A DNA stretch of 48,389 bases, from the NCBI GenBank assembly GCA_900556605.1, contig USPC01000005.1:1-48389 (forward strand). Direction: 5' to 3'. This stretch comes from an uncultured Collinsella sp. (GTDB taxonomy: Bacteria > Actinomycetota > Coriobacteriia > Coriobacteriales > Coriobacteriaceae). The position numbers were made by a program, and so were the translations under genes. Shown here piece by piece: positions 2,472-25,660 of this stretch. Within the stretch, counting starts at the first letter, position 1. The number at the start of each line of letters is the position of its first letter. The notes beneath the pieces were generated by a model that was not told the DNA's origin, did not search any database, and saw only the letters and a list, made by a program, of their open reading frames with translations.

Positions 2472-3575
2472 CTAGAACCGTTCGAGAATCTCCTCGGCAT
2501 TCTCTCGCAGATAGATATCTAGGTCCGGCACGGCAAACTGCACGTAGCCCCTCTGTGGTGCCTGAATAACCTCTCTTTGTAGCAATTTTGCCCTAATAGA
2601 GCTGACCTCATTGGTCTTTTTTCCCATGCGCCTAGCAATCTCGGATGATTTGGACTGTTGTTTATCCTCGCACATCGCCAAAAGGTATTTGATATCGTTA
2701 AGCCCCAGTCCAGAAATCGCGGGCTCGTGAACAACATCGTGAAAACGAGCCTCTGCCAGCGCAATGCCTTCGGCAACATCGCGCTCGCTCACAATGGCAC
2801 TTTTGGCACGATGCAAGTTGGCGCGCTGCCAAATGGAATAACCGACCAGTTGCACCAGATAGGCATAGCCCTTAGTGGCCTTAGCGGCTCTCGACAGAAG
2901 ATTGTCCTCTATGGTCAAACCAGTCGCGACAAAGCTATCGCCCATAGAGAGCGCTACCTCCACCCGGTTGATAGGCGCCAGATCTTCGGGGAGGGCACGA
3001 CGCAAGAACGTAAGCGCCTTGCCGTTAATAAGATCCATAACGCCGGCGGGTAAGCCGGCAAAGGCAAGTGCGATATCTACTTTTTCCCCTATCAAAAGCT
3101 GAACCGTAGACGCAATGGCACGCATATCATCAATCGGGGCGTCCTGAACTTCATCGATGGCAATAAAAAGACCCTTGGATGACTTCGCTGCCGAACTTAG
3201 CAACTTTCTAAGGCTCGACTCTTTGGGTGCAACATCGACTTTCGCAGAAACAAAGCCGGCGTTTACGCCGACTGAAGCATTGGCCGCAAAGAAAGAATCA
3301 GCAACCTGATCCCTCAAGTCCAGCAATAGGTTAGGGCCAGCAGAAACAATAGCGGTCTTCCATCCAAGTTCTCGCGCACGATCCCTAAGATCGTAGAGCA
3401 AAACAGTTTTTCCGGAGCCCCTCGGTCCAGCAATGCGCATGAGCCTCGCAGGTGCACCAATTCCCGCATTCAAACTCTCGGTAAACTCAAGAGCGATATC
3501 ATCGCGACCAATTATGCGCGGAGGCTCAGCGCCGGCAGTGGGACGAAACGGATTATGGAATGCTGTGGCGCTCAC
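2472..3575 (-). CDS. AAA-type ATP-binding protein (ORC1/Cdc6-like ATPase with winged helix)
   Basis: The 367-residue product has a Walker A motif in GPRGSGKTVLLYDL (about residues 50-63) and an intact Walker B in GLFIAIDEVQDA. These are followed by an AAA lid with an Arg-rich RRALPEDLAPI segment and a C-terminal winged-helix-like part ending LLQREVIQAPQRGYVQFAVP. This layout is the stand-alone ATPase family annotated as 'ATP-binding protein' in many actinobacteria, of unknown cellular role. The start is GTG 3575 with AGAAAGG 8 bases upstream; no ATG gives a better N-terminus. It is monocistronic, with its own AT-rich upstream region. No partner gene (nuclease, membrane target) is adjacent, so defence, replication or regulation are all open. 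Confidence 0.75.
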   Translation of the reverse strand: MSATAFHNPFRPTAGAEPPRIIGRDDIALEFTESLNAGIGAPARLMRIAGPRGSGKTVLLYDLRDRARELGWKTAIVSAGPNLLLDLRDQVADSFFAANASVGVNAGFVSAKVDVAPKESSLRKLLSSAAKSSKGLFIAIDEVQDAPIDDMRAIASTVQLLIGEKVDIALAFAGLPAGVMDLINGKALTFLRRALPEDLAPINRVEVALSMGDSFVATGLTIEDNLLSRAAKATKGYAYLVQLVGYSIWQRANLHRAKSAIVSERDVAEGIALAEARFHDVVHEPAISGLGLNDIKYLLAMCEDKQQSKSSEIARRMGKKTNEVSSIRAKLLQREVIQAPQRGYVQFAVPDLDIYLRENAEEILERF

Positions 3576-3785
3576 TTGTTTGCCTTTCTAGGGAATCGAT
3601 TAACAGTCAATCATCGTTTCAATAATTATCACAGACTATATCGAATAATATCGAGCTGTATAAGCTTGTATAAACTTATCGCGAAAGTATCGAGCTTTCG
3701 TAATTTATCTTAGCAAGTAGTCCAACGTTACTTTCTTCCAAGCTCATAGCGAAAGAAAGTTAAGGACTTCCTAAAAACCATTGCC
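3576..3785. other. AT-rich intergenic region with TATCGA and TTATACA repeats
   Basis: This gap upstream of the ATPase gene is much richer in A+T than its surroundings. TATCGA occurs three times (about 3640, 3649 and 3689). TTATACAAGC/TTATACAGC is repeated on the minus strand, and CGAAAG...CTTTCG forms a short inverted repeat near 3683-3700. It probably holds the ATPase promoter and perhaps an operator; I cannot assign a convincing -35/-10 pair. Confidence 0.35.
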
Positions 3786-17126: not shown

Positions 17127-17198
17127 ACCTACCCTTCCATAACGCTGGGGACAAGCACTTCCGATAAATTTGTCCCACATCTAGAAAAGTCGAGTGGA

Positions 17199-17222
17199 TT
17201 AGTCGGGTTTTCCCTTGACTAA
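17199..17222. promoter_or_regulatory. Candidate operator of the Rrf2-type regulator
   Basis: TTAGTC (17199-17204) and GACTAA (17217-17222) are exact inverted copies, with GGG and CCC also facing each other inside. The right arm overlaps the suf -35 element, so binding there would block the polymerase. Assignment to the neighbouring regulator is inference. Confidence 0.5.
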
Positions 17223-17243
17223 CGCCGAACCCATAGTAACTTT
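17215..17243 (+). promoter_or_regulatory. Promoter of the suf operon
   Basis: TTGACT (17215-17220) is followed after 16 bases by TAACTT (17237-17242). It lies 64 bases before the sufC start in the divergent gap between the regulator and sufC. An AGTACACC direct repeat (about 17269 and 17280) follows in the leader. Confidence 0.5.
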
Positions 17244-17306
17244 ATTCCGAGAAGATTCCTAGGGTTTAGTACACCTATGAGTACACCATATACAGAGAGG
17301 AACAGC

Positions 17307-22580: not shown

Positions 22581-22620
22581 TGGCCGAATCGCTTGACAAG
22601 AGTGGTTCGGCCATTTTCTA
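22581..22620 (+). terminator. Terminator of the suf operon
   Basis: TGGCCGAA (22581-22588) pairs with TTCGGCCA (22606-22613), with a small CTTGACAAG hairpin inside the loop, followed by TTTTCTA. It lies 28 bases after the sufU stop and overlaps the stop codon of the convergent transposase gene. Confidence 0.75.
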
Positions 22621-23427
22621 TTCCGAGAGCTCAGTCTGTGCCTTCACCCGCGCATAAGCGCGCACGATACGAGAAACGGTACTTTTGCCAATCCCCGTAT
22701 ATCGCTCAATCTGACGCACCGTAAAACCGGCATCGTGCAATCCAAGAATGACGATATTGCGCTGCGCCGACGGCGCGGCTTTAACCCCGTGGAGCGGAAC
22801 CCCGAGCCCCTTCGCCAACTTTTCGGCAAAGGCATGCCGCTCCCACTCCGTCTCTTCCAGAACGGGCATCGCTGAATCGCAGCCGTCGGGCGTCGAAAGC
22901 GAATAGGCAATAAAGCCCTCGGCAGAACCAAAAAGCTCAAGCACGCAAGAAGGATCAGAAAATCCCCTCGCGACATCAGTCGCGTCACCGTCGTAAGCGC
23001 GCAAATGCTCGGCAAAGCTGCTCCAGGGATAACGCTCGATTAAGCTGATGCCAGCCTCCTGCGGATCGGCGTGTACGGAACGAATAGCCTCCATCACCTG
23101 CCAGTCGGTATCGAGCGAACGCCGGTCAAAACGGTTCTGGAACAGATGGCCTGTGCGCCCCGTGCGTTTATTGAACCGCCGCGCGTACGTCAAAAGCAAC
23201 CGGTGCATCGCCGCGCTCATCCTGTCCTCGTAATCTGCAAGCACCAAATGCACGTGAGTGCCCATAAGGCACCAGGCGATAACCGTCACGCCCTCCTCGC
23301 GGCAGCACTCGCGCATCAGCTCCAAAAACTCCCACCGGTCGTCATCGCCCTCAAAGATGAGCTGCTTGCCCGTACCGCGGGCACAGACATGGTAAAAGCC
23401 GGTAACCGTTCTCCAAACGCGCTGCAT
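22618..23427 (-). CDS. REP-associated tyrosine transposase (IS200-like, Y1 family)
   Basis: The 269-residue product has a Y1-transposase domain (residues 1-~150) with the HUH motif H58-V-H60 in MGTHVHLVLADYED. YARRFNKRTGRTGHLFQNRF follows, with Tyr81 the likely nucleophile. The C-terminal part holds a helix-turn-helix-like segment (TVRQIERYTGIGKSTVSRIV). Domesticated Y1 enzymes of this kind (RAYTs) are single-copy and process short palindromic repeats rather than moving themselves. I chose ATG 23427, preceded by AAGGGAGC, because the 71 residues upstream are unlike the family. No insertion-sequence ends flank it. It converges with the suf operon. Confidence 0.8.
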   Translation of the reverse strand: MQRVWRTVTGFYHVCARGTGKQLIFEGDDDRWEFLELMRECCREEGVTVIAWCLMGTHVHLVLADYEDRMSAAMHRLLLTYARRFNKRTGRTGHLFQNRFDRRSLDTDWQVMEAIRSVHADPQEAGISLIERYPWSSFAEHLRAYDGDATDVARGFSDPSCVLELFGSAEGFIAYSLSTPDGCDSAMPVLEETEWERHAFAEKLAKGLGVPLHGVKAAPSAQRNIVILGLHDAGFTVRQIERYTGIGKSTVSRIVRAYARVKAQTELSE

Positions 23428-23830
23428 GGCGCTCCCTTCGCCGGGATCTGCTTGCCATCCAATACAGCACGATTGAAGCGTGCCATCAAAACATTCACGC
23501 AAAACAATACACTCGCGCGGCCAAAGGCAGTAATCAGGCGGCGAACGGCATCGTTGCAACAGGTCAACCCCCGCAATGCTTACAAGAGCTGACCAATAGC
23601 TTGCCCAAGACGGACCCCCTCTACGGAAGTTCACGACCACAGAACATAAAGTTAAACCGTTTCAATTAAAACTTCCGGACTTCTCGCTACGAAAACTGAG
23701 CCGTTCGCCGAATATTCCGTGCATTTCGCGGTATTATAGGGGCTGCATGTCATGTCCCTTTCGAAGGGTCGCCCGGCAATCGCCAGCCACGGCCCCCAGA
23801 CGGGACGCCAACACGATAGAGAGGAGAGGC
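23428..23830. promoter_or_regulatory. Gene-free region upstream of the NifU-like/GGGtGRT pair
   Basis: A TATTAT at 23732-23737 is a possible -10 for the gene at 23831, but I see no convincing -35. CCCTT-TCG-AAGGG at about 23757-23769 is a short hairpin in the presumed leader. From 23428 to about 23700 I see no gene or RNA I can support. Confidence 0.35.
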
Positions 23831-24565
23831 ATGCAGTACTCACAGGAAGTGGAGAACATGTGCCCCGTTGCCAAGGGTGCATACCACGGCCCCGCACCCA
23901 TCCCCGAGGAGGGCAAGTGGGTCCAGGCTAAGGAGATTTCCGACATCTCCGGTCTTACGCACGGTGTGGGTTGGTGCGCACCTCAGCAGGGCGCCTGCAA
24001 GCTCACGCTGAACGTCAAGGACGGCATCATCGAGGAGGCCCTCGTTGAGACCATCGGCTGCTCGGGCATGACCCACTCTGCCGCCATGGCTTCCGAGATC
24101 CTTCCCGGTAAGACCATCCTCGAGGCCCTCAACACCGACCTCGTCTGCGACGCCATCAACGTTGCTATGCGCGAGATCTTCCTGCAGATCGTTTACGGCC
24201 GCAGCCAGACCGCGTTCTCCGAGGGCGGCCTGCCCGTGGGCGCCTCCCTCGACGACCTCGGCAAGGGCCTTCGCTCTCAGGTCGGCACCATGTTCGGCAC
24301 CAAGGCCAAGGGCGCTCGTTACCTCGAGCTCGCTCAGGGCTACGTCACCCGCATGGCTCTCAACGACAAGAACGAGATCATCGCATTCGAGTTCCTGAAC
24401 CTCGGCAAGTTCACCGACGCCGTCAAGGCCGGCAAGACCCCCGAGGAGGCCATCGCTGGCGCTATGGGCCACTATGGTCAGTGGGAGAACGCTGCCAAGT
24501 ACATCGACCCGCGCACCGACGAGGAGACTCACTCCGTCGCCAGCGTGTTCCCGGTTCACGAGTAG
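23831..24565 (+). CDS. NifU-like Fe-S scaffold-type protein paired with GGGtGRT protein
   Basis: The 244-residue protein has an N-terminal region similar to IscU/NifU/SufU. GACKLTLNVKDGIIEEALVE, GCSGMTHSAAMASEILPG and TILEALNTDLVCDAINVAMR mirror the SufU order (compare 22118-22552). Cysteines are C11, C49, C56, C77 and C106; C56 and C77 fall at SufU C37 and C62, but the Asp ligand and the third SufU cysteine are missing. It is longer than SufU, with a C-terminal part of unknown fold. I chose ATG 23831, after GGAGAGGC. The GGGtGRT gene follows by 18 bases, a pairing I associate with anaerobes. Cluster carriage or sensing is inferred; no activity is established. Confidence 0.75.
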   Translation: MQYSQEVENMCPVAKGAYHGPAPIPEEGKWVQAKEISDISGLTHGVGWCAPQQGACKLTLNVKDGIIEEALVETIGCSGMTHSAAMASEILPGKTILEALNTDLVCDAINVAMREIFLQIVYGRSQTAFSEGGLPVGASLDDLGKGLRSQVGTMFGTKAKGARYLELAQGYVTRMALNDKNEIIAFEFLNLGKFTDAVKAGKTPEEAIAGAMGHYGQWENAAKYIDPRTDEETHSVASVFPVHE

Positions 24566-24583
24566 AAAGGGAGGGAAATAACT

Positions 24584-25588
24584 ATGACTGTTACGTTCGA
24601 AGGTTACGAGCGCCGCGCTGACAAGATCAACAAGTGCCTCGCCGACAACGGCATCGCCTCCCTCGAGGAAGCTCTGCAGATCTGCACCGACAAGGGCTTC
24701 AACCCGCGTGAGATCGTCAACAACACCCAGTCCATCGCCTTCCAGAACGCCGAGTGGGCCTACACCCTCGGTTGCGCTCTCGCTGTCAAGCGTGGCGCCA
24801 AGTCCGCTTCTGAGGCTGCCGCCATCATCGGCGAGGGCATCCAGGCCTTCACCGTTCCCGGCTCCGTCGCCGAGGACCGCAAGGTCGGTCTGGGCCACGG
24901 CAACCTGGGCGCTATGCTACTCTCCGACGACACCGAGTGCTTCGCCTTCCTGGCCGGTCACGAGTCCTTCGCTGCCGCTGAGGGTGCTATCGGCCTGGCT
25001 CTGAACGCCAACAAGGCTCGCAAGAAGCCGCTGCGCGTCATCCTCAACGGTCTGGGCAAGGACGCTGCTCAGATCATCGCCCGCATCAACGGCTTCACCT
25101 ACGTGAAGACCCAGTTCGACTACTTCACGGGCGAGCTCAAGGTCGTCGAGACCATCCCCTACTCCGATGGTCCCCGCGCCGCCGTCAACTGCTACGGCGC
25201 CGACGACGTCCGCGAGGGCGTTGCCATCATGTGGCACGAGAACGTCGACATCTCGATCACCGGTAACTCCACCAACCCCACGCGCTTCCAGCACCCCGTC
25301 GCTGGCACCTACAAGAAGGAGCGCCTCGAGGCTGGCAAGAAGTACTTCTCCGTCGCTTCTGGTGGCGGCACTGGCCGTACCCTGCACCCGGACAACATGG
25401 GCGCCGGCCCTGCCTCTTACGGCATGACCGACACCATGGGCCGTATGCACTCCGACGCCCAGTTCGCCGGTTCTTCCTCCGTGCCTGCGCACGTCGACAT
25501 GATGGGTCTCATCGGCATGGGCAACAACCCCATGGTCGGTGCCACCGTCGCCTGCGCTGTCGCCGTCGAGGAGGCCCTCAAGGCCTAA
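24584..25588 (+). CDS. GGGtGRT family protein (function unknown)
   Basis: The 334-residue protein carries the name-giving motif GGGTGRT at 260-266 (YFSVASGGGTGRTLHPDN). Other likely conserved blocks are GHGNLGAMLLSDDTECFAFL, VILNGLGKDAAQIIARINGF and the glycine/methionine-rich end MDTMGRMHSDAQFAGSSSVP. No membrane segment or known catalytic motif is visible. GGAGGG precedes ATG 24584, 18 bases after the NifU-like gene, so the two form an operon closed by a strong terminator. The codon choice is very uniform and GC-rich, as in highly expressed genes. The glycine-rich motif could bind a nucleotide or phosphate; that is only a guess. Confidence 0.8.
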   Translation: MTVTFEGYERRADKINKCLADNGIASLEEALQICTDKGFNPREIVNNTQSIAFQNAEWAYTLGCALAVKRGAKSASEAAAIIGEGIQAFTVPGSVAEDRKVGLGHGNLGAMLLSDDTECFAFLAGHESFAAAEGAIGLALNANKARKKPLRVILNGLGKDAAQIIARINGFTYVKTQFDYFTGELKVVETIPYSDGPRAAVNCYGADDVREGVAIMWHENVDISITGNSTNPTRFQHPVAGTYKKERLEAGKKYFSVASGGGTGRTLHPDNMGAGPASYGMTDTMGRMHSDAQFAGSSSVPAHVDMMGLIGMGNNPMVGATVACAVAVEEALKA

Positions 25589-25623
25589 TCGCGCCCGCGC
25601 GATGCTCATATAGCTGAGCTTTG

Positions 25624-25660
25624 GAGCCGCTATCCACCCGGGTAGCGGCTCTTTTTGTTT
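25624..25660 (+). terminator. Terminator of the NifU-like/GGGtGRT operon
   Basis: GAGCCGCTA (25624-25632) pairs with TAGCGGCTC (25643-25651) around a 10-base loop, followed by TTTTTGTTT. It lies 36 bases after the stop. Confidence 0.85.

Follow-up and report, generated by a model that had tools for sequence, protein, structure and literature searches.

In the window, which is the whole 48,389-nt stretch of uncultured Collinsella sp. DNA analyzed here, a gene for a protein with an IscU-like fold (p1) stands directly ahead of a gene for a GGGtGRT protein (p2). We judge the chances to lie somewhat above even that p1-p2, as a candidate iron-dependent, two-protein enzyme, carries out the enolase reaction and is able to replace enolase. 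The fuller reading, in which the pair is a nonhomologous Fe-S enolase that replaces the magnesium enolase in some anaerobes and serves as a fluoride-induced backup elsewhere, is held at barely better than even confidence; it would also name the missing enzyme of Oscillibacter-type fermenters, and of Butyrivibrio and Prevotella if the pair is present there. We place the pair at the enolase step because the absence of enolase, gpmI nearby, a fluoride riboswitch, and an iron response opposite to that of enolase meet there, and these are largely separate data. The conserved pairing, the shared occurrence, the enrichment of missing enolase, the nearby gpmI, and the riboswitch were all computed here. 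The connection to enolase and fluoride had not been foreseen in an earlier, sequence-only reading of this DNA.

The gene pair, its neighbors, and its distribution

The positions of the two genes and of the signals around them are listed in Table 1. Both genes lie on the + strand, 18 nt apart, at the place given by the sequence-only reading. From this spacing, we infer that they share one transcript, and the stretch 5' of the pair is probably their own promoter. Where a terminator had been claimed 3' of the pair, a terminator-like hairpin is present; with one such site found against 1.2 expected in shuffles, it counts as anatomy and not as statistics. The GGGTGRT motif lies where it had been reported in p2, and all five cysteines listed for p1 (C11, C49, C56, C77, and C106) are present. 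The uniform codon use noted earlier was borne out as well: p2 and p1 have the strongest codon bias among the 15 window genes compared, with the lowest Nc values (28.0 and 29.7, respectively), and the five suf genes of the window range from 30.2 to 32.6. A passage of PMC11204068 reports high expression of a GGGtGRT protein in gut anaerobes. An IS200-like (Y1_Tnp) transposase gene (22618-23640, - strand) separates sufU from the pair, and its Nc of 51.8 is the highest of the genes compared. At 17180-17300, between an Rrf2-family regulator gene and sufC, there is an inverted repeat, TTAGTC...GACTAA, which by eye is possibly a binding site of the Rrf2-family regulator.

Table 1. Features of the p1-p2 locus, in positions of the window
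Feature	Position	Strand	Length or remark
p1, NifU/IscU-fold protein	23831-24565	+	244 aa
p2, GGGtGRT protein (PF14057)	24584-25588	+	334 aa
Codons of the GGGTGRT motif, p2 residues 260-266	25361-25381	+	
Purine-rich ribosome-binding region 5' of p1	23820-23830	+	conserved in aligned Collinsella-type loci
Stretch 5' of the pair, GTTCGCCGAAT ... TATTAT/TAAAAT ... GCATGTCA	23680-23760	+	common to most aligned Collinsella loci
Intrinsic-terminator-like hairpin, T tail	25623-25652	+	13 pairs

To evaluate the pairing, 101 loci (L001-L101, of which 80 are the best among 582 relatives from a single scan of genome contigs) were compared. In 98 of them, both genes share a strand and p1 lies no more than 600 nt 5' of p2; one of the three exceptions is at a contig end, and the other two have three small ORFs between the genes. 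The genes are side by side on one strand in all 21 loci from L001 to L021; in L001 the contig end truncates p1, and in L018 a small annotated ORF occupies the gap. In a draw of 249 Bacillota genomes, the phylum of a Clostridium (G184), p2 occurred in 16, and full-length p1 (>360 bits) occurred in the same 16. The draw holds 17 copies of each gene, with every p1 copy adjoining a copy of p2; of the remaining p1 matches listed, none exceeded 32.6 bits or covered more than the NifU-like stretch. Thus, the two genes are conserved as neighbors, and both pairing and co-occurrence support the earlier description of two uncharacterized genes, one of them NifU-like, that stay together in anaerobes. No fixed third partner gene was found among the loci compared.

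Several loci depart from the common arrangement. Two Clostridia loci (L061, 4893-6602; L077, 5731-8001) hold three ORFs between p1 and p2, two of which by eye resemble a nucleotidyltransferase/HI0074 pair, and in L061 the p1 frame is fused to the preceding gene. Two metagenome proteins (P0029 and P0124; one contig each) run p1 into p2, with the letters of the stop codon replaced. A GA-cis RNA (RF02987, 67.8 bits) extends across the end of p1 and the p1-p2 gap in a Bacillota locus (L133, 2190-2272). Bacteroides fluxus (L160, G187) carries a C-terminal fragment of p2, 56 residues long, about 24 kb from the full gene.

p2 was found in 26 of 39 relatives, in 6 of 149 genomes from the phylum of the window (each within the order of the nearest genome), over the cut-off in 6 of 249 Pseudomonadota, in 7 of 100 Spirochaetota, and in 1 of 148 Bacteroidota, that one being the center of the draw; the draw centers had been picked for carrying p2. 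In a tree of 76 p2 proteins, the Spirochaetota fall within the Bacteroidota, and Succinivibrio falls within a Bacillota branch with Oscillospiraceae, placements that fit transfer. A Collinsella aerofaciens locus (L020) has p1 and p2 at 100% identity and likewise arranged, with sufCBDSU and a transposase gene ahead of them. Across the loci, the suf neighborhood is not maintained: suf genes were near the pair in 5 of the 101 loci searched, many of which are only about 4 kb long, standing 5' of the pair in L020, L022, and L023 and 3' on the other strand in L005 and L025, and all five belong to Collinsella or the genus of the nearest genome. Fe-S handling or sensing had been suggested from the proximity to suf; that proximity is not conserved, and the link to iron rests instead on the published iron response and on the IscU-like fold of p1.

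Sequence and predicted structure of p1 and p2

A Pfam scan of p1 returned NifU_N (PF01592) alone, over residues 55-102 only and at 21.3 bits against a cut-off of 22; the score against TIGR03419 (26.6 bits; cut-off, 187.9) does not reach the threshold of that curated family. Profile comparison supports an IscU fold, with an hhalign probability of 97.1% over 67 columns. In the predicted structure of p1 (mean pLDDT, 80.9), the IscU-like domain covers residues ~38-125, where the structure matches fall. A Foldseek search with p1 alone gave nothing at E ≤ 0.001 (best, 1.4e-3), and the C-terminal part, residues ~128-230, is without a match to a fold. Compared with IscU, the NifU N-terminal domain, and SufU, p1 thus has this extra C-terminal part and is altered at the places of the first Cys and the Asp.

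Among 220 distinct p1 sequences, H44 and C49 are invariant (220/220 each), as are C77 and C106 (217/217 each). C77 corresponds to the second Cys (GC motif) of IscU/SufU. C56, which had been assigned to the place of the SufU catalytic Cys, is a Cys in 211 of 218 sequences, and the alignment puts Q53 at that place, with C49 four residues before it; C11 varies too. The Asp ligand was correctly described as absent, the place of IscU Asp39 being a gap in the p1 alignment. The third Cys was thought to be missing as well; it may be C106, which in the model stands directly before helix 107-121 of the IscU-like domain, although sequence alignments do not pair C106 with an IscU Cys. In the same model, C49 follows strand 41-48 and C77 follows strand 66-75. 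The cluster is bound more tightly by IscU variants that have no Asp39, so the loss of the Asp in p1 would fit a lasting cluster.

p2 is a plain, full member of the GGGtGRT family (PF14057), which it matches at 631 bits against a gathering score of 27 and which is the sole hit of a Pfam scan. A joined p1-p2 model gives it an N-terminal helical part and a Rossmann-like alpha/beta part (residues ~115 to 320); p2 is well predicted in most of this model except for residues 261-277, a loop that follows a beta strand and has the GGGTGRT motif at its start. H126-E127-S128, N155/K159/D160, N228/T230, and S259/R265/T266 are invariant or nearly so, and secondary structure read against the conservation table shows that the conserved residues cluster where predicted beta strands in the Rossmann-like sheet end. 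Three near-invariant cysteines of p2 are each missing in 3 to 7 of 232 sequences. Neither the Pfam description nor the literature passages on GGGtGRT that were retrieved give a function for the family. One such passage names GGGtGRT, with no test, as one of the putative virulence factors that software detected in C. innocuum (PMC9942572), and another reports the protein of Pseudobutyrivibrio ruminis in a rumen metaproteome (PMC7035244).

Homology of p2 to class I fumarase was tested but found no support. The hhalign probability was 0.3%, and a hint toward fumarase came from 1 of 45 family members at an E value of 0.004, with no reliable homology to any hydro-lyase. As for the three cluster cysteines and CQDTG motif of class I fumarase, only C34 of p2 is in register, in weak alignments, and neither the Q nor the D of CQD is conserved.

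Enolase, glycolytic neighbors, fluoride, and iron

We next compared the occurrence of p2 with that of enolase (PF00113). In the Bacillota draw, PF00113 was undetected in 6 of 16 genomes with p2 versus 8 of 233 without it (one-sided Fisher test, 5.8e-5), in what are largely draft genomes, the completeness of the latter 8 not being given. This draw is a fairer count than a set of 71 genomes that was hand-picked and not random, in which PF00113 was found in 58 genomes, including 14 of 14 named controls, and was missing in 13 of 52 with p2 versus 0 of 19 without (Fisher test, 0.011). The two sets share 30 genomes, including 6 of the 13 enolase-negative ones; outside the 249, enolase was missing in 7 of 36 versus 0 of 5. 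Three genomes with weak or partial PF00113 matches (G476, G601, and G637) were scored as having enolase, and rescoring them as enolase-absent gave a P value of 2.1e-4. Enolase is kept in the other 39 of the 52 genomes with p2, so p1-p2 is mostly an addition to enolase. In the window's own genus, one genome (G006) lacks enolase though it is 99% complete in 3 contigs, and the enolase-negative genomes with named isolates are those of Oscillibacter valericigenes An890 (L075, G189) and Olsenella intestinalis (L027, G193).

Missing enolase is treated as an open problem in print (PMC3558957), and a passage of a 2024 review calls it a still-remaining gap (PMC11187502). According to an excerpt of the Hungate1000 report, about half of the sequenced Butyrivibrio strains are without enolase, Prevotella and Lachnospiraceae are named too, and a strain comparison gave no clear gene complementing the loss (PMC6118326). 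A complement present in enolase-positive and enolase-negative strains alike would escape a comparison of that kind. For Endomicrobiellum, which is without enolase, the authors propose in the part consulted an import of PEP (PMC12483993).

The genes around the pair point to the same step of glycolysis. A direct search located gpmI in 12 distinct loci, in each case 5' of p1 and on its strand. The gap to p1 is about 90 to 190 nt in five (G692, G618, G668, G588, and G473) and 640 nt to 1.2 kb in seven (L034, L044, L061, L064, L077, L086, and L095), the latter with at least one predicted ORF between gpmI and p1 where placed; in five of these seven, pgk-tpi-gpmI precedes the pair. A set of Bacillota loci has pgk, tpi, and gpmI among the genes 5' of the pair. 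In operons of the pgk-tpi-gpmI type, eno commonly follows gpmI, and in the one control locus (L191) gpmI adjoins eno. Any of PGK, TPI, GpmI, or enolase was found in 22 of 162 rows, which include repeated loci, short fragments, and the control. eno itself is divergent and 384 nt from p1 in L062 and lies 677 nt 3' of p2 in L064.

A fluoride riboswitch (RF01734) stands ahead of p1, on its strand, in 10 loci, from Vibrio, Persicobacter, five Pseudomonadota, and three Bacillota. It lies 35 to 194 nt 5' of p1 in eight (L016, L182, L183, L184, L185, L186, L188, and L142), 804 nt 5' with a TauE-family gene between in L189, and 2,023 nt 5' with a CLC gene between in L017. The Rfam search scored it at 46 to 61 bits (cut-off, 34) in 10 of 12 loci and gave none in L187 and L018; since these loci were chosen and are mostly divergent or nongut, 10 of 12 is not a frequency. 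RF01734 was also found in 4 of 20 further loci, three of the four repeating genomes already counted. A model built from eleven of the riboswitch sequences gave 9 clear matches (at least 50 bits) in the 33 sources of one set, repeated genomes included. Neither the window nor 99 further sources, whose titles mostly point to gut anaerobes, gave a match. Judged from these sequences, fluoride controls the pair in some lineages and, within what was seen, does not do so in gut lineages. Directly 3' of p2, the divergent Bacillota loci L188 and L189 have a DUF190 gene and two genes for CrcB fluoride channels. L188 holds a second fluoride riboswitch (3515-3576, - strand) after its CrcB and DUF190 genes, and in a Spirochaetota locus (L161, 2538-2599) a fluoride riboswitch comes right after p2 and is followed by a sodium/proton exchanger gene. 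As stated in a portion of a review, fluoride inhibits enolase with a Ki of about 80 µM, and operons that include enolase often have fluoride riboswitches (PMC11139923).

A rise of flavodoxin in low iron is the classical case of an iron protein giving way to one without iron. Such a rise is reported for both Clostridium pasteurianum and Bacteroides thetaiotaomicron in excerpts of two published data sets that also cover the pair (PMC5395762, PMC10434189). In C. pasteurianum, by the 2-D gel spots of cells on glycerol that are given in the part consulted, the GGGtGRT protein was higher in iron excess (7.1-fold early and 2.2-fold late), as was its NifU-related neighbor (2.4- to 3.7-fold, early), while enolase spots were higher in iron limitation (4.1- to 4.8-fold early and 1.8- to 4.0-fold late); triosephosphate isomerase and GAPDH were 1.5- to 1.6-fold higher in iron excess (PMC5395762). 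In B. thetaiotaomicron, by the portion of the data seen, BT0173-74 went down 11- to 12.8-fold in low iron, ferritin and a rubrerythrin went down 2.7- to 3-fold, and a three-gene group including eno went up 2.0- to 7.7-fold with a P value of 0.144 (PMC10434189). Thus, the pair and enolase act like an iron-for-iron-free swap clearly in C. pasteurianum and suggestively in B. thetaiotaomicron.

Proposed function and alternatives

From these data, we infer a reaction, a cluster, a catalytic protein, and a tolerance of fluoride. p1-p2 would convert 2-phosphoglycerate to phosphoenolpyruvate, replacing the magnesium enzyme enolase. The catalytic subunit would likely be p2, to judge by its conserved residues at the strand ends of the Rossmann-like sheet, and p1, in which three Cys and one His are kept, would carry the iron-sulfur cluster that p2 needs, either as part of the enzyme or as a supplier dedicated to it. 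Water removal may be assisted by the cluster, on the model of aconitase and class I fumarase, in which an Fe-S cluster acts as a Lewis acid that helps remove water; these and other [4Fe-4S] hydro-lyases serve as a mechanistic model, with homology unsupported. Since the pair would not depend on a magnesium site sensitive to fluoride, glycolysis could go on in fluoride, which would be why a riboswitch stands ahead of it in some lineages; likewise, because the pair would need iron, it would be made at plentiful iron and enolase at short iron. p1-p2 would thus share with enolase (PF00113, EC 4.2.1.11) the reaction and the gpmI neighbor, seen for eno in L191 and for the pair in 12 loci, yet differ from it in having no sequence relation, with PF14057 and NifU_N the only Pfam hits of p2 and p1, in consisting of two proteins, in using iron versus magnesium, and in the opposite iron response in C. 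pasteurianum.

The main weaknesses of this proposal are that 39 of 52 genomes with p2 keep enolase and that 8 of the 233 Bacillota without p2 lack enolase too; other solutions may exist, such as the PEP import proposed for Endomicrobiellum. The lack of reliable homology of p2 to a hydro-lyase, the absence of each of its three near-invariant cysteines in a few sequences, and the lack of a riboswitch match in the window and 99 other sources also speak against it. Missing enolase, gpmI nearby, and the fluoride riboswitch would fit as well if the pair acted at the same metabolic node through another reaction, such as a bypass from 2-phosphoglycerate or glycerate to pyruvate or the replacement of another fluoride-sensitive magnesium enzyme (pyrophosphatase is one further fluoride-sensitive enzyme), and it is the context alone that fixes the step; we regard this as unlikely, the simplest reading being that the step following gpmI is swapped directly.

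We think it less probable still that the pair is a module of fluoride defense or repair apart from the enolase step, in which p1 is an Fe-S carrier and p2 guards or repairs metal centers. The riboswitch, the genes for CrcB, DUF190, or CLC that accompany the pair in certain lineages, and the IscU fold of p1 all agree with such a role; however, it leaves the enrichment of missing enolase, the nearby gpmI, and the contrary response of enolase to iron in C. pasteurianum unexplained, and the riboswitch is absent from the window and the 99 other sources. The direction taken by the sequence-only reading, a module for storage or delivery of iron or Fe-S clusters that is iron-induced since it handles iron, we find the least probable of all. 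It draws on the IscU-like p1, on the higher level of the pair with iron in two phyla (in the passages of PMC5395762 and PMC10434189), and on the high expression mentioned in the excerpt of PMC11204068, whereas the link to suf is not conserved, and gene context and riboswitch favor other directions.

With a specific two-gene candidate for the enolase step, the question of missing enolase becomes directly testable. If the enolase proposal is true, these anaerobes would have a glycolytic iron switch, with an iron enzyme at plentiful iron and a magnesium enzyme otherwise, and an unexpected strategy of fluoride resistance. It would also give a function to GGGtGRT, a protein that the passage seen of PMC11204068 reports as highly expressed in gut anaerobes.
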